Assembly: GCF_052857255.1 (NCBI RefSeq)
Contig: NC_135506.1
Span: 77,023,056 to 77,087,055 of the forward strand
Origin: Amblyomma americanum
Lineage: Eukaryota; Arthropoda; Arachnida; Ixodida; Ixodidae
Reading direction: 5' to 3'
Length of the DNA: 64,000 bases
The position numbers and the translations under genes were made by a program. A model generated the notes under the pieces. The model made no database searches, was not told the origin of the DNA, and saw only the letters and a program-made list of their open reading frames with translations. Position 1 is the first letter of the stretch. Every line of letters starts with the position of its first letter. Positions 8,930-25,618 of this stretch are shown piece after piece.

Positions 8930-9635
8930 GTACTTGCGTAATGAACACACTTGCATAATGAACCCACATCCCCACTTTTGTCAGTGGAAATTATTTTTTT
9001 TTAAATGAATAGCTTTTCATACCGCATTCCTGTTCTCGCGCCGTCCGCAGCGCAGACCTTGGCAGCGCGACAATATGCTGGAAGCTGATAATACCACAGC
9101 ATGTTTATTTTTTGAGGAGAGCTCCAATGGAAGGCCAGGGGAGGGGGCTCTCTGAACTTGGCAGAGCACCAAGGCGCTGGTGGTGTTGGCTCGCTGGGCA
9201 CAATCTGTGCTACTGTGTGCTTAGAAAGCCGGCAAGTGCTCAAGCATCAGAGAGAAACGTAGCAAAAATGCCTAACCCCTCACTGTCCAGCGTGTTATTT
9301 TCAACTTGGCATAAACAACGCGCACCTGACCTTGATGGCCGGAGTTCAGTATGTTCGTTTTATCTCGCCGCGATTCACCATCGCGGCCGGGTATCGCACT
9401 GTGATATAGCAAACGCCTTCCAGCGTGAACGAAGCGTTCGCCACCGTCTGAATGCATGCTTTTGTTGATGGTGGGTGGGGGGATGGATGGATTGACGGAC
9501 GGATGGGTGGGAGGATGCATATGAAATTTTGACTCCACCAAAAAAATATGTTTAAACTTTTTAACCACATAATGAACTATCCCCCCAAATTGATGTCAAC
9601 TTTTCTGGAAGTGGGTTCATTACGCGAATATATAC
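8930..9635. mobile_element. Tigger-like MITE, copy 1
   Basis: The ends are inverted: the left contains TTGCGTAATGAAC and the right GTGGGTTCATTACGCGAATATATA. Sequence blocks are shared with 36937-37812, including GCAGACCTTGGCAGC, the TGACCTTGA...GTTCAGNATGTTCG block and the GGATGGAT-rich segment near the right end. No transposase frame is present. The CAGTATATA-type terminus is typical of pogo/Tigger elements that insert at TA. Confidence 0.65.
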
Positions 9636-10320: not shown

Positions 10321-13300
10321 CTGTTAGGTGAAGCGAGAAAAATGTCTGTCTGCAAAAAGCCCAGTAAAATTTCTTTATTTCAAAGTAATCAGGACCTCAC
10401 AAATATTCTAATTAAGAGGGTTTTCGATTTAACCAAGGACAGCCAAAAAATTCACAGGGACACCTAATTAAATAACGTGTTGGCCAAGCTACAGTATTAG
10501 AAGATGTTCATGCCTTTACCGGAGGTGACGTCATTTTCCTCCAGTCAGCTAGCAAAGTTCATGACTGACGACACATTTTCTTTCCGATGATTTTCTTTCT
10601 AATGCCACTGCATTAAAATAGGACCCAGGCAAAATATTTTACTGTGGGAATGCATCATCCTTATTGGACAAACTTTGCAATTACTTGAAGTAATTGGAGA
10701 CATTGGTAACCTAACCCTCTAACCATGGCACACCACACAAGGAAACTGTGCAGGCCAGCGTGGCACACAGTCAGCCGGTCACCGACAAGGAACAAGAAAA
10801 AACTAGAATTCCGCTGTTATGTTCTTGGATGCTGCATTTTCCTGGCTGCTACGTCTTCGTGAGCCAGTCCTGTCCAAGCTTCCATAGAAACCCGTGCAAC
10901 AGAAACTTGGCTGTTACATTGTAACTGTGGCAGCTTTCCCACATGCTACGTCACGAATGTCATTTCAAGGTAGTGGTTCATCCCGTGCCAGCATTCTGAC
11001 AGCCAACAATCGGGGCGCACAGAATGGCAATGGAGCCAAAGAGGTACTCTATACTCAATAGCAGGTTGGCCGTCACCATGTTCGGCGACCTGCGGCATGT
11101 TGCACCTATGTCAATGCTGAGCACACTCACAGTCAGCGTGAAGCTTGTCATGAGAGCTGGTGCAGCTTCATCACTGTTGAGACACGAGCACAAACTAATG
11201 AAGGCGCGAAAACAAAACTATGCCACAGCAAACGCCGCCCTGGCAAGGCTGTACGACGTGCAGTTGTGCGGGTAGGTGCCGTGGTGCTTTTCTGACGTCC
11301 GCCTTTTCCCTGTCACTAGGAGCTTAACAATGCAATTTCTAGGTTCCAACAGACAAGTATTGCGTAGGATTGAAGCGGCCGCCACAAAAACGACGCAGAA
11401 GAAGCACACAAGTGAATTAACTTTGCCCATACTCTGTGCCCGCACCCCAGATCTTCGAAATAACCATGTTGATGCAGGCCACCAGACCTGATTATTTGGT
11501 AAAATTTACAATAGAAATTATGCGGCCACAATAATTCCTAGAATTATCTGGGATAGAATTATCTGGCACAGAATTACCAAGCCTCAAACCGAAACAGAAG
11601 TGCTAGCGCACTTAATTCAAATTTGGACTAGCCATGCTAAATCGTCCGTCATTTTTTAAAATGTTTCTCTTAGTTTCCGGACCTCCATACAGTAGGCACA
11701 GTGCACTGCACGCTGCAGCATGTTTGCTTTTGCATCTGAACCTTGTTTCATCAGTGGCAGAGCAGCCACTGAACACGAAGCGAATGAAAGCAGTCACTGT
11801 CAGTTGTCTGTTTTTGTGTGACATGCCTGGATGAGGAGGTCTAAGACCCTAATTAGTATATGTTAATTTGCCAAATGCATATTTCCTTCCAGGTCAAATA
11901 TTTACCTGACCCTCATAACCCCTTAAATTAAAGCAGTACAAAAAATTCAGAATGTGCAGAAAACTATCAACCCCTTTCTCCAAAGGTGCTTCGCAACTGA
12001 AATGTGAATTGGGCCTTTTTTTTTGCATGAATTTAACCTTTCGATTTCAGCTGTGTTTAGAGAGTCCAAAAAAATCTGTCAGTGACTGAAATAAGACACA
12101 GGGCACCTGTTACTGCTCACTGATTTATTGATTAACTGGTGACTTTCTGCATACACTGTAGACGATCAGACAAACTGTCAGAATTAACTAGGCCAGTGCA
12201 AACACCACATTTACTCAAATGTAATGAAAGTTTTTTTCCAAGATTTTCTGTCCCTTAAAGTTCACCCTCATGTTGAAACCAAACACCGTGATTTGACTGC
12301 CCTAAAGCAGTGTTGCGGTGCAGCCATTGTGAAGAAATCGCAACTAGGTTTTGGATTCCACAGTTTTGGGGTATTACGTCTGTTGGCAACATGAGTACCA
12401 TGAAAGCCAAGTCCAAGTCTATCCAAAAGTCAAAACGTCACCCTTTGTGTTCATTGGGATACCGTGCCTTTCACGTTGTGGCGTCATGTTCTTTAAATGC
12501 GGGACCGTACGCATCGCACATCAATCACCACTCCGTGCAAGGCGCGGAGGGGGCACCCATCTGCATGTGCCTTGTGCTAGCTTACTGAGGTGGGCGCACT
12601 GTCCCGCTTGTTTAGCGAATTTCACGCTGACAACAGCTGCGACAGCCGCAGTCAGCCCAGGCTCGTCCCGCAGAGGACAAGAGAGCTGCGCATCCTCTGG
12701 TGCATGCTGCCGTGCCGGTTCCAGCATGTGCGCACTGAGGGTAGCGCAGGCTCAGGCACCTGGCAGGTACAGCTCTTAAGCTCTGGGCACTGTGTGCATG
12801 CGCAGACTGGCTCTAACACACGTGCAGGCGTGCAGGCATGCTATGCACATCCTTAGGAAGTGTTCATCGAGTTAGGCTATGGCAACGCGCACGATGCTAT
12901 CCCAGAGGAAGCATGATGAACTGAAACCACACCAAGCAAGGATTTTAGAAACAATACTCGCAAGCAATAAATACTTGAAGAATTCAAATACCAACATTCG
13001 GATCAAATCAAATATCGAATACTTTACTATTTGATTGAACATTTGAAATTACTGAATATTTGCTCATGTCTAGAAATAACCCCTTAGGCATTAATTATTG
13101 GGTGGGAGAAAATTTTCAAATTTTTTGAGAGAGCATACCAAGATTGTGCACTAAGAATTCCCAGCCTTTCGAACGATTACCTATGCCTTATCTCTAAGTA
13201 AACAGACCACTACATATTAGGCATTTTAAGCACACATGCTTGTGCAGAACAAGCAGTCAGGTGCATTCACTGGAATCATACCAGAGCTACCATAATACAA

Positions 13301-15579
13301 AGGGGCGTCCATCTTAAGGGGAGACATGGCTCTTCACAGCCGAAAATTAGAATAAAAAAAATCAAATTTTTTATATTTAGTTTTCGCTATCCTGAGATCT
13401 TTTCACAGCTATCTACATATTTTCCTTACAACACACTACCTAATTCGTGCGTTGTAGAATTCAAGATATGTGAATCCGGGCACTTAAATTGAGGTCAAAT
13501 CGCACTAAACATTGACTCCCAGCAGTTAGAGAAATATGCGCTGTGCTCGCAACATTTTGGCTTCGTTTGAAAGGCCGTGATTCAGGTTATTCCCATATTT
13601 CGGTTGGCGACAATAAGCAAACAATGGAAGCGGTAAACAAAGGTACAAAACTGTGCAAAACACGTACTGCTTATTGGTCTCCAAAATCACGTGACCAAAT
13701 TGACGACTTTTAGTTTGCTGGTGGCTTCAACCGCTTGCAACCCGGTGCGAGTTAGTCACACTGCGCTGTTCCACTGTCACGGCCGAGCTAGGTTTGTCAG
13801 TGCAAAATGAGGAATACATATTTTGAGATGTGCAACATCTTCAGCCTAAGAGGAAGCAAAAGATAGAGATCTGAAGCTGCTGGGCACACTGCATCATCGC
13901 AACCTGTTATCTACGATCAGCAACCAGCTCAGCACTCAGCACTACAGCGCTACAGCGAGGAGTGAGAACAGATCCTCTCAAGAGATTCCTGCTGCATACA
14001 GGCAGCATAATCGTGAGTGTGCAGATGAGGAAGTGATACCTAAGCAGCTTTTGTTGATAGCCAGCAAGGGCACGATAGATCGAGCCTTACAGCAATGCTA
14101 GTGGTGTGACGGCAGCGGTGGTCACAAACCGGCGTCCCGCAACGTGCGGAATCTCAAAGCTTGACGAAATAAACTTTGTTCTCAATCTTTTGAGGTGCAA
14201 GACAAGCGAAGAGCACAATTAATTACTTAGGGGTCGATAGCAATCACAGCATTGTTGTGAGATACACACATGCACACCTCTACTTTGGCAACAACTTCTG
14301 GGAAGTCATGATGCAAAGGCATTCATCTCTGGTACCAGCCTCCAGATCATGCCATTTCTTCTCCGGCAATTTCCTTGTTGCAAGCGCTATTACATCGAGC
14401 AGAAATGGTGGTACGCCCACCCCAGAAATAGCCAGAGCTCATTTCAGTGATTTTTAGTTGGCCTTGGTGGCACAAAAATATGCCAAAAATGTCTTTCCCC
14501 AATTTCTCACAACTGCCTTTCTGACACAATCATAATTTTAGAGGAGCAATATCTCCAGTTCTATAACAGCTATTACTATAATTCTATTTGTGAAAGAAAG
14601 ATAAATGCACAGACTCTGCAGTAATACTAACTTTAGACCACTAGATCATCAAGAAAATGCTCAAAATATATAATTTTCACCAGCCCCCAAAACGAGCTTT
14701 CTTCAAGTTTGACCAGTTGAAACTTTCTTCCAAATCGCCCTAGGATGCTCAAATATGCCTTACTGCACTCCTAATGACCTTAGATTATTTATAAATAGAA
14801 ATGTTCTTCGTAAAATCTCATGTTTGTTAACCAAGCTTCCACCAAAGAAAGACATGCTTTCCTTGATCTATGTACAAGTGACTGCTGCAGGAGAAAAACA
14901 ATTGCAGTTTTGGAATCAGCACATGAAAATGCACGGACAGTAAAAATTTGGTGTAAATCTGTCCATAAATTAAAAGAAAAATGTGTCTAAGAGAGGTTCC
15001 CCTTTTAAAAACGATTTTCCGCATTCAACTGGTACACCTGGCTCGAGATGCTTCTAGGCAAAGTTTTCCAGATTTAAAGGTGCCCTGCAACGTAAATCAA
15101 GCATGAGGTCTTCATCCTCTGTTAGCAAAGTAAAAGACACTGTGACGCCTGAATGCCCAAGGAGATCAGATATGCACATTTCGAGCCAATGGTGTCACAA
15201 CGTAGTGGCGATTTTTGGCCGCAGTAATCCAGATTGGGCACTGTCTTTCTGACCGGCTGGGCATCCAGTTTGAACCTAGTTGCTTTATACTCGCAAAATG
15301 GATCCAAAATATTATGTCTCCGAGTGCTGCAAGGTTTTCACATGCCACAGAAACTTATTCTCAGTGAAAGCGAACAGAAACTGACAAGAATAACGCTTAG
15401 GGAAACAGTTTCCATTTTGCTTCAAACTTCCTTGGAGACAAACACTGTTTTTCAAACCACTGTTTTTCAAGGCAGCAAAAAAAAAAAAGAAGGAAGAAAA
15501 GCCAGTGACACAACCTGCCCACAAATGTGAAGGGAGAAGCCGGACAGGAGGTGAGGTTGGAGAGGATGAGCTTCCTTTG
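10321..15579. other. long intron-like interval without recognised genes
   Basis: This interval lies between helicase exons. It is AT-rich with scattered repeat debris. At about 13314 the sequence TTAAGGGGAGACATGGCTCTT resembles one end of a piggyBac-type MITE (compare 27750 and 34630). AT-rich ATTCGAATA-type sequence at 12960-13070 resembles hAT subterminal DNA. Short frames, such as 10978-11193 minus and 12351-12779 plus, have no recognisable domain or splice context. Confidence 0.5.
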
Positions 15580-16035
15580 TAGACTTAGTGACCTCGTTTA
15601 TGTGTAAAGTCCCACATGTATGCAAAACCACTAGATTAACAGTGAGAACTACTGCAAAAGTTGCCACTGAACCCGACACAAACGATATTGCACCGTGTTC
15701 CAGCCAAAACAAGCGCCTGCACTCTGCAAAACATCACACAAAGAACCGCAGTCTTTCTAGTCCAAATAAATATGGCCACGCACACTTACCGCTAACATAC
15801 CACCTCTCCGTAATCTGCTAGTTGCCGAAGCGCTGCCAGCACAAAGTCGTCCTGGCGAGTGTGGCTGCCCGCTGGCAGCCCAAAACCCAGAAAAAAAACG
15901 GCCGTGGCTTAGCTTGGTTAAGCCTGGTGATTGCGAAGCAATAGTGTGTTATTCTCGAATCAGCTGGTAGTATGGCTGGTGGTAGTCTTGGGTTATGCTA
16001 GTGTTACAGCTTACAGTGAATCATCTAAGAGGAAG

Positions 16036-16551
16036 TCACCCGTCGAATCCGTGTATGCCGATAAACATTTCCCTCACCAGCATGCCCATTACAAAATCTT
16101 CCAGTATCGATTGGCCGACGGTGCGGTAACACTCCATTTTCTCCGCATCGTAAGATATGCCCACTCGGTGCTTGCAGTAGCGTTCGTTAAAGTACGGTAG
16201 CGTTACGCCATAATAAATGTTGGGGTTATTGTCCCCATCTAAAATGCGATACAGATTGTTGTACGTCTCCTCGTCGTCTTCACGATGCATTAGCGGTAGC
16301 TTGTATGTTTCAGCCACGTTGTAGATGGCCAAGTTGTCTGCATAACAACCCCATCGTTCGTCGGTCATCTTAAGTTTGCCCCACTTGTGCATCTGTGTGT
16401 CCGGCGTGTCGCTGGTTGCCCCGGGGTCCGGCAGTAGACCCATCTTGCATCTTACAATGTCATTCTTGTAGCGCGGTACGCGCTCGTACGCGTCGCCTAT
16501 AGAGACCTCGTCCAGGTAGCAAAACACGTTTTTATTGTTTTTGTTGAACAT
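16036..16551 (-). CDS. PIF-0/P74-like viral envelope protein fragment (endogenous viral element candidate)
   Basis: This is an uninterrupted 171-codon frame with no recognisable cellular domain. It has five cysteines (residues 11, 35, 69, 126, 141). The order of motifs is CYLDE near residue 11, RWGCYADN near 67-72, and FNERYCKHR near 121-129, followed by a cysteine and a hydrophobic GQSILEDFVMGMLV segment near 146-159. This order, especially the FNE.YC ... C ... G..V-G pattern, is what I associate with part of the PIF-0 (P74) per os infectivity factors of baculo-, nudi- and related large DNA viruses. The normal protein is several times longer, so this is at most a fragment. The same frame stays open about 60 bp upstream of the ATG. 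Its expression is unknown. Absence of stops suggests recent capture or constraint. Alternative: an unrelated cysteine-rich tick ORF. Confidence 0.45.
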   Translation of the reverse strand: MFNKNNKNVFCYLDEVSIGDAYERVPRYKNDIVRCKMGLLPDPGATSDTPDTQMHKWGKLKMTDERWGCYADNLAIYNVAETYKLPLMHREDDEETYNNLYRILDGDNNPNIYYGVTLPYFNERYCKHRVGISYDAEKMECYRTVGQSILEDFVMGMLVREMFIGIHGFDG

Positions 16552-16568
16552 GGTTCGAGTAGACCGCT

Positions 16569-17171
16569 TTATGGGGTTGAGCGGCGTCTTTGACGGATCG
16601 ACGTAAGTTTGTCCCTATGCCACAACCGGTCACACACTGTACACGCATAGCCGAACGGGTTGTTAGTAAAGCGTCTGTTGAATTCACGCGTTGCCGTCTC
16701 AAACTCCTTTACTCTTCTCGCATGTTCTTCACATCGTTCTACTGCAATGTGTCCTTCAGGTTGAGTCGGGCCAGCCTTGGTGAGAGATTTCTCCTGTCTT
16801 TTCTTCGAATGCTCTTGTCTCTGCTGAGGTGTTTCTTCTGCATGCTGTTTTCTTCGCTTTTCGTTTTCCTTCTCTCGAAACGCACGTTCCTTCTCGAGCC
16901 GCTGCTGCCGCTGTTCCGGGGTTTCTTGAACACGCCTCTGCCGTTTAGTCGCGTTCCAGCGTTCTGAACTAGTAGAAGGAGACTCACTGTCGGGCAAACT
17001 CATATTTTTTTCCTTTGCTTCTGCTGTTTCCACAGAGGAGGTTGCACGTTGTCGCCGAGCTGCATACTGGGCACGCCGCTTAGAAAGTCGTTCTCGTTCT
17101 TCTTCCGTCTCCGTAGCTCGCTGATGCTTCCTCTTTGCATTCTGCCGAGCTGCCTTGTTCGTAGGCACCAT
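16569..17171 (-). CDS. Helitron-type N-terminal protein: basic coiled coil plus C-rich motif
   Basis: The 200-residue frame is very rich in Arg, Lys, Glu and Gln. It begins with a basic segment (RLSKRRAQYAARRQRA near 28-43) and has repeated ETPEQRQ-type heptads near 83 and 112. It ends with NPFGYACTVCDRLWHRD near 172-188. The C-x2-C-DRLW motif is characteristic of the region upstream of the Helitron-like N-terminal domain in arthropod Helitrons. The Rep and helicase domains needed for rolling-circle transposition do not follow. After LTSI the sequence diverges, and the frame ends 17 bp before the ATG of the viral-like ORF. Both ORFs are on the same strand inside the 15930-17477 insertion. The motif is visible; the family is inferred. 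Confidence 0.5.
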   Translation of the reverse strand: MVPTNKAARQNAKRKHQRATETEEERERLSKRRAQYAARRQRATSSVETAEAKEKNMSLPDSESPSTSSERWNATKRQRRVQETPEQRQQRLEKERAFREKENEKRRKQHAEETPQQRQEHSKKRQEKSLTKAGPTQPEGHIAVERCEEHARRVKEFETATREFNRRFTNNPFGYACTVCDRLWHRDKLTSIRQRRRSTP

Positions 17172-17703
17172 CGTAACCTCTGGCTGTATGACTGCCTTGG
17201 CGAGAGGAGCGGAGCTGTTTTATACAGCTGGTGTGACATCACTCTGACCGTAGCGCCCCTGGTGAGAGGAGCGGGAGTTAGGCCGCCGTTGGTGGCTACC
17301 GCCTCGCCTCGCGACGGCGTGAGATGGGGCCCCGTTTTTACACAGCTGGTGTGACATCACTCTAGGTCACGTGGTATGACGTCACGCAGCGAGGTCACGC
17401 TAAAGGTCAATGGTGCCTACCACCGCCTCGCCACGGAACGGGCTGAAGTGCGACCTGAAGTAGTATTGCTTCGCAATAAAACAAACGCGTTCTGGGCAGC
17501 CACCGGAAGTGCACGGAGCAGCCCAAGAAAATCAAGCGCCTGGCTGTGCCCTCTGGCAGCCTGCAGGCAGCCTGCGGGCAGCCAGAGGCGGATAATCGAA
17601 GAGGCCCACTTAAGCGCATCCACATCTGTGGAGATTAGAGCCCGTACACAAGGGTTAGACATTGTTCAGGCTATAGAGAATAAACGAGTGTAGAGACACC
17701 CAC

Positions 17704-17931
17704 CCTGAGGTTGCAGTTCAGCTCCAGCACCCCCTGGAGGAGCACCAGCAGGAAGTCGGTGCAGACGTCCCTTTCATGCACCTCATCCACAATGACGTGC
17801 GAGATGCCGCGCAGCTTTGGACTGCCCTTGAGGTGCTCCAGGAGGATGCCCACAGTGCAGAAGAGCAAGCCCCCGTGGCTCGACAACAGCTGTTTGGAAA
17901 TCCACACTTGGAAGCCCACCGTCTCGCCCAG
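17704..17931 (-). pseudogene. DHX30: DHX30-like helicase, exon with DEVH box
   Basis: This 228-bp exon (76 codons) follows a TTGCAG acceptor before 17931 and ends at AGG|GTGGGT after 17704. It encodes GETVGFQV, GGLLFCTVGILLEHL and SHVIVDEVHERDVCTDFLLVLL. The DEVH box is motif II, which binds Mg-ATP, and FCTVG...L belongs to motif Ib. The run closely matches the DHX30 subgroup. Phase is 0 at both ends, so it joins exactly to 22529-22736 upstream and 10162-10320 downstream. Several positions where I would expect arginine are Trp, Glu or Gln (QVW, LLEHL, LLQGV), as loss of CpG-containing Arg codons might give. That is suggestive only, since no intact tick copy is at hand. Confidence 0.82.
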
Positions 17932-17970
17932 CTGCAAGGCAATAAACGCACTGCACTTGTAGGGGATGGC

Positions 17971-18200
17971 TTTACTGGGTTTAACATCCCAAAGTGACTC
18001 GGGCTATGAGGGACGCCATTGTTGAGGGCTCTGGAATATAATTTCGGCCACCTGGGATTCTTTAACGCGCACTGATATCGCACAGTACACGGGCCTCTAG
18101 AATTTTGCCTCCATCAAAATGCGGCCACCGCGGCTGCCTTCACACCCGCACGTTTCAGGTCAACAGCCGAGCGCCATAACCACTGAGCTACCGCAGAGGA
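17971..18200 (-). repeat. Ruka-like tRNA-derived SINE
   Basis: This is a nearly full reverse-orientation copy: GGTTTAACATCCCAAAG, GGCTATGAGGGACGCC, GTACACGGGCCTCTAG and the tRNA-like head read backwards (GAGCGCCATAACCACTGAGC). It lies 40 bp upstream of helicase exon 17704-17931. Confidence 0.8.
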
Positions 18201-18423
18201 GCACTTGAAGGATATGTGACACCATGAAGTCAGGAGACAAAATCGCCATTGCCGATTTCACAAACAGCTTCAATAAATAAAAATTTTATTTGACATAAAC
18301 TGCACACAAAATGTTGAATAATTATCTTGATCCAAAGCCGGGCTGTCACGGCTGGTGATGTATCCAGTGCAAAACTTTCACACTTTTACTAAACATTTGG
18401 ATAAGCAAGAAAATGATAAGATG

Positions 18424-18522
18424 TGGGGTTTAATGTCATGATGACACCTAAGCTGTGAGGGATACCGAAGTGGAAGGCTCCGAATTAACTTAGACCACCT
18501 GTGGTTCCTTAATGTGCCTGAC
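18424..18522 (-). repeat. Ruka-like SINE fragment
   Basis: This diverged body fragment (GTTTAATGTC, GCTGTGAGGGATACCG, AGACCACCTGTGGTTCC) lacks the tRNA-like head. It stops about 30 bp short of the hAT element. Confidence 0.6.
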
Positions 18523-18553
18523 GTTGCAAAACTTCTGTTTCATTACTAAAAAT

Positions 18554-20874
18554 TAGGCTTGTGCGAATATTCAATATTTTCGAATAATGCGATATTCGAT
18601 ATTAGCTTCGATTCGAATTTTGCTATTCAGAAATTTCGAACTATTCGTCTCAAACGAATAGCCGCATGCGGCAGGAGAAGGCGTTTTCGGAAGTTTCGGT
18701 TTTTAATACAGTAATACTTCTTCCAATCCAATCCAATCCAAACCAAGCCAGCAAAGCTCAGAACAAAGGCATACAAAAACGCATCTTGTCAGTGTGGCAG
18801 CATGTGGTGGTGTGGTCGATTGCATTTAGTGGGCGACTCTGTCTCTGCCACGGCGGCATTGGACCACTTCAGAAAGCACCATGGGGGACTTGCATGTGGC
18901 CAGCAATCCGATTTGGACCTTTTTGTAAAGATTCCACCGGGAACCGAAGCTCGATGTTTTAAATGCAAGGCAGTCCTGAAGACCACGACAAGTATGACAA
19001 CAACCCTAGCAACACATTTAAAGAGGAACCCTGACTTGCACAAGGACTACCAAGAGAAGTGGGACGCACACGAAGGCCTTCCAAGCTCAGGGGGGCAAGC
19101 AAGGCAAGTGGTCAACAACCATCCACAGCCAACTGTTTCAAGCCGAAAATGAAGGCGTTGGCCCCAAAAGCCCAACAGATGACGAAAATGATAGCTCGCT
19201 TCGTAACTCATGGTATGCACCCCTACAACATTGTCGAAGAACTGGGTTTCCTCGACATGATGAAGTTCGCAATGCCGGATTATGGCGTGCCATCTCAGAC
19301 AATGTTCTCGAGAGCGATTAATCCGGACTTCTACGCATCAAGCAAAGAGAAGGTGAAAAAGAAGCTCGGGGACATTTTTGTAAGTGGAGTGGAGTCGCTT
19401 TCAATCACAGCTGATGGTTGGACATCGTGGGCAAATGACAGCTACGTTTGTGTAACTTGTCACGTCATGGACAGGGACTTCATGCAACACGTGCATGCAT
19501 TGGCTTGCATAGAGATGACGAACTCTCACACTGCAGAAAACCTGGAGCTATTTATCACAGGTGTCATCGAGGAGTCGGAACTTCCGGCCCACGATATTGT
19601 GCCAATCTTCGTCATTACAGATAATGAAAGGAACTTTACTTCTGCAGTAGCGCGGCCATCCTGGAGTGGTGTGCAGTGTTTCGAACACACCCTTCAGATG
19701 TGTATCACTGATGCCAAAAGAGAAGTGTCAGGGTTTTTGCAGTTCTGTGCTAAGGCCTGAGCGATTGTGGCTAGATACAAACGAAGTCCCAAGGTCTGAG
19801 GACGGCTTCAGGAAATTCAGAGAAACATGCAGCTGGACCCTCTCGAGGTTATACAAGACGTCCCGACACGATGGAACAGTGAGCATGCCATGATGGCCAG
19901 ACTCGTGAAGCTCCGTACAGTCATCACTGTAGAACTTTCAGAATCTGATGCAGTTCCAAACTTGAACGCAAGTGAGTGGAAGCTTATGAATGCAGCAGTG
20001 CACATCTTGAAGCCACTTGACCATGCCACAACTGAACTGTCAGGGGACAGATATCACACGCTGTCACAAGTCATTCCCATGTTGCAGTGTACCAAGGTGG
20101 TTCTAGCTGAACATGTTTCCGAAGGTGGTGAGGCAGCATTGCTTGCCTCAAGCCTTTGCGTAGCATCAAGACGAGGTTACCTGATATCAAGATGTCATGC
20201 CTTCATGCATTGTCAATGTTGGTCAATCCTAGATAAAAAGATGTCTGTTATGCTGAACGACCCGCAAAGTAATGGGCGTTCACTCTACTCACAACGGCAG
20301 CAGAAGGGACTGTGCCAGTTGATCAACATGGTACAGCAACAAGTGAGAACAGCACCTGCTCTGCAGACCAATCACGGGGATCTATGTGGAGTGCTTTTAC
20401 ACACTTCAGCTTGCGTGCACATCATCAGTCAAGCCGTACAATCTCGGATGAGGTTGCTGGGTATTTGAAGGCCTCCTTCTTTCCCGGTTCCAAGACCCCC
20501 TTGTGTGGTGGAAAAGCAAGGGCAGCCAACTTTACCCAACCCTGGTTGCAGCTGCCCGTAGGTACCTTCCGATACCAGCCACCCAGACGAGAAGTGAAAG
20601 ACTTTTTTTGACTGCAGGAGCCGTTGTAAGCTGCAGAAGGGAGCACCTCAAACACCAGCATGCGGAACAGCCAGTGTTTTTGCACGAAAATTTGTAGACT
20701 TTCGTAAATAATCAAGTTGTTTACTTTCCTTGAATAAATCCCAGACCTTAGCCTTCGGCCTTTTTTTTTTTTACTTGCTACTATTCGAAGTATTCGCTTC
20801 GAAATTATTAGAGAATAATTGATATTTGCTTCGAATTCACTTCGAACGAAAAAAGCACTATTTGCACAAGCCTA
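18554..20874 (+). mobile_element. complete hAT DNA transposon, 2.32 kb
   Basis: The terminal repeats are TAGGCTTGTGCGAATATT at the left and its near-inverse (TATTTGCACAAGCCTA) at the right. The 8-bp direct repeat CTAAAAAT lies immediately outside both ends (18546-18553 and 20875-20882), as expected for hAT insertion. The interior holds one degenerate transposase gene in plus orientation. Both ends are rich in ATTCGAA-type motifs that could bind transposase. Confidence 0.92.
18802..20697 (+). pseudogene. hAT transposase (BED zinc finger), broken
   Basis: The product has an N-terminal BED-type zinc finger (C-F-K-C ... T-H-L-K-R, about 18955-19030). The catalytic core carries SITADGWTSWANDSYVC near 19400 and the FVITDN segment near 19610. 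PTRWNSEHAMMARLVKLR (19865-19920) is a strong hAT signature. The C-terminal dimerisation region includes YLPIPATQTRSERLFLTAG near 20565-20620. It would cut and paste the element through its terminal repeats. A frameshift between 19060 and 19150 and in-frame TGA codons near 19758 and 19797 break the core. A further shift near 20450 precedes the dimerisation domain. The frame ends at 20697. The closest relatives are probably the ZBED-like Ac/hobo group. Confidence 0.85.
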
Positions 20875-20882
20875 CTAAAAAT

Positions 20883-22528
20883 CTGATCCACTACTAAAAA
20901 AATTATTTTAGCTACAGACACAAATTTGTAGAAATGGAACAAAATGTTCGCATATTCTTTTAGTGAGGACACAAAATTGGATGTTCTTTTCAGCTTATAT
21001 GAAATGTTATTGCATAATTTAGCCCCGTCAAAACATTTTAAGCGGTGCCAGTACGTGTTATACAAGGAAATTGAGAAATGTCTGCAATTTTTCGTTACAC
21101 TGGCAGTTTTTCACTACTTGACGTTTTCCCACAGACTCGAAAGTGCAATGCGAAAAGAAAATGAAGATAAGAAATAAATTTAGGTGAAATCACCTACGAA
21201 ATGTTGGAGTAAACCCCCGTGACTCGAATTCATAAACATGGAGAACCATCTCACAATCGCAGTCGCCACTACTAGCTCTGCCGCGGCTCGCACGACGCTG
21301 TTACGAGTGGGGTGAAGAGTGGAAGAGACAGAGGAGTTGGTGACACCATGGGCCGGTAGGGCTGGCTGTGTTTGATGCATTTGACTTGACTGGCAGTCAC
21401 GTTTTACTAGTTTTTACTGTTGTTCTTCGTCAATAGTCGTTAGTGGTGCACATCCAGGAAGCGTCCAGCACTTGTCCATGGCCATGTTCAAGATGGCTGT
21501 CATTCTTTGCGCCGAAGAAACGAACTGCATGCCAGGCCACAAGTTTTGGGAAGGGTGATGCAGGTGTGGCTGCAGCGAGTCAAAATTTTCAGCTGTTCCC
21601 TGTGATGTTGTGGTGCAGTTGTTTGCGAAGTGCGGGATTTCACACTGGGTGACGATGGTAGCATGACGTGCTGTGGGACCGCAGCAGCAATGACAATGAC
21701 CGCACTAGTGAGGATGATAGCGCGAGTGTGAACGAGTAGTCAAGTAACAAATACATTTGTGTTGTGGAATGTGGCCATCGGCACACATTATTTTTCTTCC
21801 TGATGTGACATGGGGGGGGGGGTCGACTTATATTCGAATTGACATACAATCGTGTAAATGCAGTAATGAGCTTATACTGCACAGGTGAGATTTGACAGTG
21901 TTCAGATTGCATCCACATATGTGGACACACTTACCAGGATAATGAATTGCAGCATGAAAAGATGCAACACAAAGCAGCTAAATAAAAGGGTTTGAGTTTG
22001 TTGGGTTTTACGGTACATAAGCAATCAAGGCCGTCATAAGCTAAGCACAAGCTAAAAAAGAGGGGTGGTGGATTGAAACATGCAAGGACTTAGGTTCTCC
22101 GGCAACACAAAAAGCAAAGAACAAATCGGTTCCCTGAAACCCAGTTTGAGGACCCCTGGTTTAAGGCCCCAAAATTCCACAGCCGAGGCCAGCAAGTTGA
22201 TGTCACTTCTGCAGGGCCACCCTTCAGGCTCTTTTCCAGTGCAGCCCTGAAAGCACCCCAAAAATGAACAGACCTAAGGTTTACCTCAAAAGCTCACTTA
22301 GATTCTGTCAAACTCGCTTTTGAAAATTTCTGTGTCGGCACCTATCAGCAGTGTACCTTAAAATAATGGAGTGTTAGGTTAGTTGCTTATGCATATACAT
22401 TATAGCGCAAGACAACAAAGACGATACACTAGAAGACTGGACGAGCACTCATGCAGTCTTCAAGTCTGTCGTCTTTGTCTTGCACTATGACAGCATTCTG
22501 CGATGCCAGTAAACGAAAAACCACCAAC
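20883..22528. other. no gene recognised; probable MITE debris
   Basis: A run of ten or more G followed by TCGACTTATATTCGAATTGAC near 21812-21845 resembles a Tigger-type terminus. A short inverted repeat around AAGACA.CAAAGACGA at 22405-22425 and TCGTCTTTGTCTTGC at 22470-22485 forms a foldback just downstream of helicase exon 22529-22736. No coding frame was recognised. Confidence 0.4.
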
Positions 22529-22736
22529 CTCTTCGCCTCGCTCCTGTGCCACCTGCTTTGCTATGCTGATGGCTGCCGTCCTCCGCGGCTGGGTGACGAC
22601 TACGTTGCAGGCAGAGCCCTCACCTCTGCAGAAGAACTCCTCAGTGATGAACTGGGGCCCTTGCATCATCCTTCCCGAGCCGGTCTCGCCATAGACCACC
22701 ACCACTCGATAGCGCTCCATGTGAACAATGTTCTGC
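22529..22736 (-). pseudogene. DHX30: DHX30-like helicase, exon with a destroyed Walker A motif
   Basis: This 208-bp exon has an acceptor ending CTGCAG before 22736 and a GTTGGT donor after 22529. It encodes RVVVVYGETGSGRMMQGPQ, then CNVVVTQPRRTAAISIAKQVAQERGEE. TQPRR is motif Ia and is intact. Motif I should read GETGSGKTTQ-x-PQ; here Lys is Arg (AGG) and both Thr are Met (ATG ATG). The invariant lysine contacts the ATP phosphates and the first threonine coordinates Mg, so the product could not hydrolyse ATP normally. The two Thr-to-Met changes are what CpG decay of two ACG codons would give. The exon starts in phase 2, matching the AG left by the exon at 25402. Confidence 0.85.
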
Positions 22737-23630
22737 CTGCAGTACAAGCATGAATGTTAAATTCCGGAATGTAACATTCCCAATATAGTGGCAATTATCA
22801 GCAATGCCTGTACCATTACGTGTACCATTACCAACTTCACGACCACTCCCTCCCTCTTCAAGCGAGGCCGATTCCCAACGCTATGCCCATGGTTTAGCCA
22901 CGGCCATTGGCAACGATACAAAGAACACAATGGTACCAGCAACTCTTGAACCTTCTTCCATGTTAGCACACAGTATTATAAAAAAAATACCAGAACAAAA
23001 TCTGGTGCTACCATCATCAGGATGAACGCTCGAAAAAACCTACATGCGGTTTTACGTGTGGGTTTTACTGAATAAATGAGTTAGAAGTCTCACCCATGTC
23101 TGCCTCATTGTGAGTGTCTCAAACTTGTAGTGCTTTTGAAATGATTACACTGCTTGTGCCATGAACATTTACGATCTGCACTGAAACATTCAGAAGCAGA
23201 AGCAAACAACTCTGATGTAAGAGGGGAGGCAGGTTTCGGGACTTAAGTTTTTACTTTTCGACCAAGAGCAGTGAAATCTGGCATGCTTTTTGGAAAGTGC
23301 ACTAAATAAATAAATACAAATTTTCCCTATAATATATCATCAGTACTTTTGACAATATAAATTTTTATGTGCTTCATTGAGATGCCAAACTTGCAGTAAG
23401 CCTGGCATGACAACGAAACATGGTAGGAGCCTGCAGTCACCCTCAAGTGTTACACAAGTATATGTTATACAGTGACACTCTCCAAATAGCTTCAGTAGGC
23501 TGATTTTTTCTACACGAAAAGTTCTATCCCTGCTTCCATAATGCACTCATTATCACCATGCCAAAAGAGTGGCAGAGTGAAAAAATGGAGTAATTTAGAA
23601 ATGTAGGAATGTCACTGTTTTATGACTTTT

Positions 23631-23815
23631 GGGAGTTTAACGTCCCAAAGTGCTTCAGGCTATGAGGGATGCCGTAGTGAAGGGCTCCGGAACTTTCGAC
23701 CACCTGGGGTTCTTTAACATGCACCGACTTCGAACAGTACACAGCCCTCTTCAATTTCGCCTCCATCGAAATTCGTCCGCCGCGGCCTGGATCAAACCCG
23801 CGTCTTTCAGGTCAG
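23631..23815 (-). repeat. Ruka-like tRNA-derived SINE
   Basis: This is a well-preserved reverse copy of the body: GTTTAACGTCCCAAAG, GGCTATGAGGGATGCCG, GACCACCTGGGGTTCTTTAA and the B-box region (GATCAAACCCGCGTC). It is truncated before the A box. Confidence 0.8.
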
Positions 23816-23989
23816 TATAAAAAATTTAACAAGGAACACAATGCAACATACTACATGAAAATCCAAAGAAGCTATTTTCATGCTATGCTTTCTGCAAACA
23901 GGGCAGCCATGGTCAAGAAAAATTTATTGAGAAAACTGGTATTTTCCAAGGGTTTCAGCCAGTTTTTTGCTACCTCCGCTCACAAAATT

Positions 23990-24420
23990 GTTTTTTGAAG
24001 GCACTTCTGTGCTTTTCTTGGCTTTCTCGTGCTGTTTCCATTATGATTTCAACAGCTGAATGAGCACTGTGGCGTCAAAGTGTACTTACAGGTCACGTGA
24101 GAGATGGGAAACGCCCATATAATCGCTGTTTCCACATTCATTGTCATTCCGAATCTTGAGGAAGGCTGGCATCAACACAGCAGTAAATTAAAACGATAAA
24201 GCAGCGATTATATGGACGTTTTCCATGCCTCACATGACACAAAAGTACTCTGACGTCACAGCCATCGTTCGGTTGTTGAAACAGATACCGAAACAGCTCG
24301 ACAGAAAAAATTCGATTATAAATTATTTAGTGGTCGTAGATGAGCGCCACATGGTGATTCATGCATAGTAGTGTCTTCTGCATCATTGCAGAGAAGGAAA
24401 TATGCTAACAAAATTAGGTG
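23990..24420. mobile_element. TTAA-ended foldback MITE, copy 1
   Basis: The left arm (from about 24027) and right arm (to about 24300) are inverted copies of each other. The left carries CGTGCTGTTTCCATTAT and CATATAATCGCTG; the right carries CAGCGATTATATGG and CGAAACAGCTCG. The right end reads TTAGGTGTCTATACTCCTTTAA, ending in TTAA. Related copies lie at 34651-35183 and 35880-36180. No ORF is present. TTAA ends suggest mobilisation by a piggyBac-type transposase. Confidence 0.6.
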
Positions 24421-25401
24421 TCTATACTCCTTTAAGAGGAGTTACGAGACGACGCAACTTGTGGCACGAAAGCTCAACTTCAAAAATTCTTTTTTCGCTT
24501 CAAACAAAAATTAACTCTATAAAAATTTCAGAAATGAAACCCAATAAACTGTTATACGTAACCCGCTATTGCTTATATTTTTACTTGGACCACCTCACGG
24601 TGAAATTAACGAGCGTTTTTGGCTCAAAACACTTTTTCAACTTCAGTATTTTTTACTTTCGATGTACGCAGTTCTATCACCTGCAACATTTGTTTAGGTA
24701 CTAGACATCTAGACAATCTAAACGGCTATTTCCGAATTTCCATGAACAAGTTGATAAATAAAAAAACGACAGAAATGGTACATTTTCATGCATCTTTTCG
24801 ATTTTTTAAATATATTTCTGCCATATAAAGCTGCATAATCCGAATTTTATCGAAAACCAGAATTGTGCAAATATCAATAAAAAAAATTGTGAAGCATTCT
24901 CTAAAATTTGAATTTTTTAATAATTATTTAGCAGTGCCTGGTTGCTCGCCTTTTCTAAATATTCAAACTGCCCTCACCTCATGAATAAATTTTTTCCGGC
25001 AAAAATATTTTAGGCTTTGATTACACACATTAGGATAAGTCTCCATCCATTTTTTTGAACAAATTGAAAGATGGTCAAGTGCAATGTCTGGAACTTTTGG
25101 CGTGGAATGACACAGACCTAATGTACCTGACCTCGGCCATTGCTTTTTCGCGTGCTGGGAGAGTTGGAACAAGCCAAGAAGTTTGAATTCAGCGAATTTA
25201 AAAGAATGTGCAGTCCGAATTAAGTGGCTTTAAAATGCATTGAACATATAGCCAGTCAACCAAAACTTCCAAAGTTACCTGAATTCACCGAAAGTTCGAA
25301 TTACCGCAAGTTTAATGTACTTCAATCTGTCCTCAATGTCCTTTCATGCGGCACAAATAAGAGCGCAACTGATAACCGCCACCAAGCGCCAGGTTTCTCA
25401 C

Positions 25402-25618
25402 CTCTGCGGGAAAATGGGGAGAGCCTGTTTGGCTTGCTGCATCGTGGATGAGTAAAGGGAGGCCCCCTCAAGCCTGGACAAAAGCTCCCCGTCTCTTTGG
25501 GGCTGAAACTCGCTGGAAACAATGAGCAGCCGTCCGGTCATGATGTCATACACGACACGGTGTGAACTTGCGCGAGTGGCTTCGGTCTCTACGCTGCAGC
25601 CTTCTTCTCTCGCATCAT
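25402..25618 (-). pseudogene. DHX30: DHX30-like helicase, linker exon before the helicase core
   Basis: In one minus-strand frame this exon encodes DAREEGCSVETEATRASS, then VVYDIMTGRLLIV and MQQAKQALPIFPQ. It ends AG|GTGAGA, leaving two bases that join with G of the next exon to give Arg. The run ending LPIFPQR directly before the Walker A exon, and the D-x-(M)-TGR run, match the order seen in DHX30 between its second dsRBD and the helicase core. The acceptor is ambiguous. TTCCAG before 25618 keeps the frame open. A more pyrimidine-rich TTTTGCTCAG before 25648 would include an in-frame TAA near 25640. The exon fits in phase with the donor at 35322 upstream if 25618 is used. Confidence 0.6.

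Follow-up and report, generated by a model that had tools for sequence, protein, structure and literature searches.

Layout of the inserted element and its reading frames

The window, the whole 64,000-nucleotide stretch of the Amblyomma americanum genome that was analysed, contains on its minus strand an exon of a DEAD/DEAH-box helicase gene at 17704–17934, corresponding to residues 116–192 of the predicted NCBI model LOC144108421 (P0002), in which Pfam recognises a DEAD domain. An inserted element lies in an intron of this gene on the same strand. It spans 15899–17481 (minus strand, with the 5′ end at the high and the 3′ end at the low coordinate), the two points at which similarity between loci ceases, and T-runs, read as A-runs on the plus strand, terminate or flank it at 17478–17481 and 15891–15898. 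Repeat search and locus comparison both located a 5′ subterminal palindromic inverted repeat, ATTGCGAAGCAATA, at 17464–17477 and its 3′ counterpart, TATTGCTTCGCAAT on the element strand, at 15930–15943 (both on the minus strand). These arms, 14 nt each, are 100% complementary at a spacing of 1520 nt. Allowing up to two mismatches, the 14-mer occurs three times in the 64-kb window, compared with a mean of 0.79 after shuffling and with three or more occurrences in 3 of 100 shuffles; both exact copies are the element ends. Locus comparison also revealed a 3′ palindrome, GGCTTAACCAAGCTAAGCC, at 15906–15924 (minus), 7 nt ahead of the terminal T-run, and the 5′ leader at 17218–17363 (minus) contains a 28-nt direct repeat twice (17218–17245 and 17336–17363). 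The original prediction had placed a unit at 15930–17477 between inverted hairpins; the perfect 14-mers at its two borders bear out the hairpins, but the 3′ limit fell about 31 bp short.

The element carries two reading frames on the minus strand. ORF1 (16569–17219, 216 codons) encodes the N-terminal part of a Helentron Rep/helicase protein, with basic repeats and the motif CTVCDRLWHRDKL, and is cut short by a deletion. In two longer relatives (L051 and L042), frames with the CTVCDRLWHRDKL motif continue into DUF6570 and Helitron_like_N; a Pfam search with ORF1 itself gave one sub-threshold family and nothing above threshold. The CTVCDRLW-bearing frame had been described as Helitron-type, a class assignment that we retain while correcting the frame to the N-terminus of the element's own Rep/helicase protein. 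ORF2 (16036–16614, 192 codons from stop to stop), the frame singled out as PIF-0-like, is the 3′ part of an accessory orphan ORF. Counted from its first ATG at 16551 it has 171 codons and begins 17 bp beyond the end of ORF1 on the same strand, as had been reported, and its product contains RWGCYADN and FNERYC. It consists of residues 88–275 of a 275-codon parent frame plus four codons out of ORF1 DNA, and by sequence comparison the stretch 16252–16614 (minus) matches residues 193–313 of LOC144108421. The lengths of the two window frames alone are merely mildly unusual, because first-order Markov resampling of the element in six frames gave frames of at least 192 codons in 57 of 2000 resamplings and of at least 216 codons in 19 of 2000.

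Near-full copies of the element occur eight times at 75.86–77.31 Mb of C10 (L001–L008, the window's own included). Since the flanks are common to all eight, the window copy appears, from this comparison, to be a single insertion into the DEAD/DEAH-box helicase intron that was multiplied by segmental duplication; the shared flanks led us to reject the eight copies as separate transpositions. In LOC144108421, helicase exons are followed by a stretch of 121 accessory-frame residues, the letters of which fit the sister C10 copy L034, and a second predicted NCBI model, LOC144098032 (P0001), joins about 53 accessory-frame residues to a group 7 allergen domain. Exons matching P0002 on the minus strand were seen at 17704–17934, 22523–22738 and 25401–25541, and also at 10990–11172; this helicase gene region (10990–25541, minus) belongs to the segmentally duplicated part of C10 at 75.86–77.31 Mb.

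A family of Helentron derivatives with a shared accessory ORF

Searching the A. americanum genome (2.56 Gb in 429 contigs), we found at least 76 matching pieces for the 1548-bp unit (40 of 1326 candidates scored) and at least 152 for ORF2 (150 of 223 candidates scored), counts in which a single place can hold several pieces; the ORF2 matches were 74–100% identical among the matches listed. With this copy number and its fixed termini, the unit is not a single-copy locus without ends, the outcome that had been named as refuting the original prediction. The same 14-bp subterminal repeats terminate other insertions of the family in the locus comparison, and the consensus across loci shows, at the 5′ end, T's followed by ATTGCGAAGCAATACTACTT and, at the 3′ end, TATTGCTTCGCAAT followed by CACCAGGCTTAACCAAGCTAAGCCACGGCCG and T's; the 3′ subterminal repeat is thereby separated from the element end by 31 nt and by a T-run whose length varies. 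The 3′-end pattern matched in 22 of the 23 non-C10 loci among L012–L038, with 20 distinct 3′ flanks; the exception, L017, fits a looser pattern only, and flanks are common to L018/L020 and to L029/L037. T-rich sequence was present at both ends in every locus row compared.

The relationship of the window copy to a longer parent is clearest from a 6.3-kb relative (L039/L040; C7:143065944 to about 143072252), in which a Helentron protein is followed by the accessory ORF at 275 codons. A frame of this length is present in L012 (the same as L039/L040) and L013 (the same as L050), and the accessory ORF lies downstream of helicase/endonuclease sequence in all four long loci examined (L039/L040, L042/L041, L044/L043 and L051/L050). 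Pfam assigned Helitron_like_N, DUF6570, PIF1, UvrD_C_2 and Exo_endo_phos to L042, and Helitron_like_N and DUF6570 to L051; the Pfam family PIF1 is a DNA helicase and bears no relation to the viral PIF-1. The reading frames of L042 and L051 are interrupted, and we therefore claim no active copy. The window element and L039 are colinear, differing in the 5′-leader repeats and in one deletion of about 4.55 kb, corresponding to the part between L039 positions 4995 and 9548 and marked in the window by a junction with a 5-bp overlap at 16599–16603 (minus). About the first 87 codons of the accessory ORF were lost with it, leaving both element ends, approximately 200 first Rep/helicase codons and the 3′ part of the extra ORF.

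Other derivatives are deleted differently. We distinguished about 16 deletion structures, with boundaries taken as BLAST edges (L038 has no 5′ match), and the accessory ORF is kept from many different points; one structure is common to L025 and L027, whose flanks differ. The earlier suggestion that the element may spread holds for the family; among 28 loci compared, the window's own deletion junction was found only in the segmentally duplicated C10 copies. All 34 accessory-ORF records checked have the Helentron 3′ end; three of them repeat others and four are C10 copies, so that they stand for 31 distinct places, compared with at least 152 matching pieces in the genome. The claim that the element carries an extra gene piece is supported in the form of an accessory ORF within a multi-copy family. 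As a separate observation, the last approximately 78 accessory-ORF residues and the Helentron tail recur on C1, mostly at steps of 42–55 kb (L045, L048, L049), at about 165.2–165.5, 334.8–335.9, 442.3–442.6 and 482.5–482.7 Mb, a pattern suggestive of tandem duplication of one locus that held a truncated insertion.

We are highly confident that the unit at 15899–17481 (minus) should be classed as a non-autonomous Helentron of the HINE type, internally deleted and carrying a captured orphan passenger ORF. The general plan described in excerpts of PMC4067079 comprises palindromic subterminal inverted repeats, a 3′ palindrome, T-rich insertion sites and a Rep/helicase/endonuclease partner, and Helentrons and HINEs such as DINE-1 of Drosophila and HINE-Mo of Metaseiulus share the 3′ palindrome and the T-rich sites with the tick element. 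As in HINE-Mo, the subterminal inverted repeats are palindromic, their 14 bp falling within the 12–15 bp expected of Helentrons and HINEs, and as in Helentrons the partner has Rep, helicase and a C-terminal endonuclease, captured extra ORFs being known in the group (excerpts of PMC4067079). The tick 3′ subterminal repeat, with its variable T-run, seems to lie a few bp nearer the end than the 38–60 bp given for mite HINEs, which counts against the assignment, and the tick element, unlike the HINEs described in those excerpts, keeps part of ORF1 together with an orphan ORF. Canonical Helitrons share the Rep/helicase protein, but the tick element has neither their 5′ TC and 3′ CTRR ends nor their A^T target (as excerpted from PMC4067079), and its long relatives possess an endonuclease domain and T-rich targets. 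The initial description as a Helitron-like insertion was thus right in proposing a rolling-circle element in a tick, and its type is revised to Helentron/HINE, the endonuclease lineage with a T-rich target.

To place the accessory ORF within the group, ten Helentrons were picked by helicase similarity (one 96% and nine 74–82% identical) and the sequence downstream of the helicase was fetched. A motif resembling the 3′ palindrome was present in nine of these ten (the miss being L052), and tblastn found the accessory ORF in none of them (best E 6.9). In seven of the nine sisters (L054, L055 and L057–L061) the fetched sequence arrives at the 3′ palindrome after 306–416 bp, and no accessory ORF precedes it. 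The remaining two (L053 at 151–555 and L056 at 246–734, element strand) have a different ORF of 135–163 aa with a hydrophobic C-terminus before the 3′ palindrome; the L053 frame matched nothing in Pfam or in the viral contigs. L052, with the 96% identical helicase, departs from Helentron sequence ahead of the place where the accessory ORF would be expected and is uninformative for that reason. Because the nine sister Helentrons are without it, the accessory ORF was probably gained by one Helentron subfamily, as judged from these sequence comparisons.

Coding origin and possible sources of the accessory ORF

The accessory ORF is coding in origin: when its segment was resampled 2000 times (first-order Markov, six frames), a frame of 275 codons was attained once, and its GC3 of 0.68 differs from the values of 0.52 and 0.44 in two Helentron frames. 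The same two results indicate that it probably came from another gene. Its 275-aa product contains eight cysteines and reaches a maximal 19-residue Kyte–Doolittle hydropathy of 1.12 (1.27 for the window ORF2 frame), with no transmembrane segment. To analyze selection on the copies, we compared 25 loci with the reference L050, letting L001 stand for the C10 copies and excluding the duplicates L020 and L037; most of these loci had been chosen by protein score, a criterion that biases the survey toward intact frames. Changes found in a single locus comprised 146 amino-acid-changing, 68 silent and 8 stop changes, compared with expected shares of about 72, 24 and 4%; those in two or three loci comprised 29, 11 and 1, and those in four or more 5, 3 and 0, respectively. 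Accessory-ORF changes across the 25 loci are thus near neutral, with a slight deficit of amino-acid changes among singletons (66% against 72% expected), on account of which some past constraint is possible. L045, L048 and L049, which have changes in common including a stop, may stem from one insertion. An open frame had been read as a sign of recent arrival. Of the eight C10 copies, all derived from one insertion, four have a single in-frame stop in ORF2, which weakens that argument, and with the near-neutral changes we rejected the open frame as a sign of either recent or functional status.

The original prediction likened ORF2 to part of the viral envelope protein PIF-0/P74, from its cysteine spacing and the order of RWGC.ADN and FNE.YC. 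This order of cysteine motifs, to which the 275-aa frame adds GCEATSCTPF (residues 72–81), is reminiscent of P74. Capture of an N-terminal PIF-0/P74 part from a naldavirus (a baculovirus, nudivirus, hytrosavirus, nimavirus or kin) would agree with a real coding frame of deviating GC3 and with the lack of a host counterpart among the predicted proteins searched, but the searches do not bear the identity out. Pfam gave no family for the window frame, four 275-aa copies or four pieces, with HMMER filters that hide weak matches. Among PDB sequences the whole accessory frame had no match and its N-terminal 110 residues had 14 weak, unrelated ones (E 0.079–1.8; flocculins, epimerases and the like). 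A collection of 5.8 billion proteins, including lengths of 261–831 aa, yielded only two matches within the limited reach of the searches, both A. americanum models. In viral contigs, a collection that may lack such viruses, a protein search with residues 6–176 of the 192-residue frame found nothing, and of 60 pattern-matching stretches none was confirmed by alignment. The DNA pattern RWGC.ADN gave 12 stretches (best tblastn E 0.22) and a pattern built on the tick motif, GCE..SC.PF, gave 32 (best tblastn E 1.5, best profile E 0.53); phages offered one place only (E 4), and none of 21 stretches in prokaryote genomes was confirmed.

Looking for viral genes in the tick genome itself, we found no Baculo_p74_N (PF08404), a weak test in which 14 controls gave one match below the cut-off, and no PIF2 (PF04631), an equally weak test that detected it in 0 of 14 controls; a ubiquitin-based search toward a naldavirus contig gave 9 loci. 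The AlphaFold2 model of the accessory ORF, built from 8 similar rows, is meaningless at a mean pLDDT of 29.8, probably owing to the scarcity of diverse relatives. PIF-0 has two C-terminal transmembrane domains according to excerpts of PMC6164829, whereas no 19-residue segment of the 275-aa frame exceeds 1.12, although a fragment could lack the transmembrane segments; the six cysteines listed there for AcMNPV PIF-0 compare with eight in the tick frame. The putative likeness to PIF-0/P74 is one of cysteine motifs, the searches described here turned up no homology, and we consider a naldavirus source unlikely.

That the source was a tick cellular gene, captured as an exon or as a retro-copied fragment, is plausible, and we hold this reading tentatively. 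Capture of host gene fragments has been described for Helentrons (excerpts of PMC4067079), the GC3 of 0.68 would suit such a source, and the start of the L039 accessory frame, at about 9280–9300, adjoins TACTAATACGTGATTTCAG, a 3′ splice-site-like string. On the other side, the Helentron 3′ end accompanies the frame at all 31 places checked, the protein searches, within their reach and length ranges, brought up no predicted relative from any source but A. americanum, and the matches listed include no distant single-copy gene. The probability that is left by the naldavirus and host-gene sources goes to other origins. Other Helentrons carry RPA or OTU genes, and the accessory ORF could likewise be a functional gene of one subfamily, useful for transposition. 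Its constant place in the four long copies and the occupation of that place by a different ORF in the subfamily of L053 and L056 are consistent with such a role; the seven sisters that reach the 3′ palindrome without it, together with near-neutral changes, argue for the contrary, though copies say little about their source copies. We regard a functional role as quite improbable.

Proposed route of dispersal and significance

For the captured passenger that we favor, the following course can be proposed. One Helentron subfamily would have captured a coding piece adjoining its 3′ end, and, because it is adjacent to the 3′ terminus, the piece would ride along and persist as a passenger as the element middle was lost through numerous different internal deletions. 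The deletion derivatives would keep both ends recognisable by the Rep/helicase/endonuclease of full-length copies and could be mobilised by these in trans. The window copy would have inserted once into the helicase intron and then been multiplied by segmental duplication. A more specific version, in which the subfamily captured the PIF-0-like N-terminal half of a naldavirus entry-factor gene and spread its pieces (at least 152, two of them now gene-model exons) while a second subfamily did likewise with a membrane-protein-like ORF, seems to us very doubtful.

A literature search on such combinations of transposons and viral genes found no paper, which does not prove their absence from print, and the word 'tick' does not occur in the text of PMC10271883. 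If the passenger were viral, it would show clearly, in a chelicerate, how a rolling-circle transposon can disperse a gene of a large DNA virus, and it would hint that ticks have a naldavirus. Irrespective of its source, the locus belongs to a multi-copy tick Helentron family in which many deletion derivatives take an orphan coding piece to various genomic sites, an intron in the present case, and parts of that piece are already exons in two NCBI gene models. Another transposon remnant may lie in the window at 18715–20468 (plus strand), where frames with a BED zinc finger are followed by transposase-like sequence that resembles hAT, its two later frames matching no Pfam family; the whole is probably a decayed hAT element.
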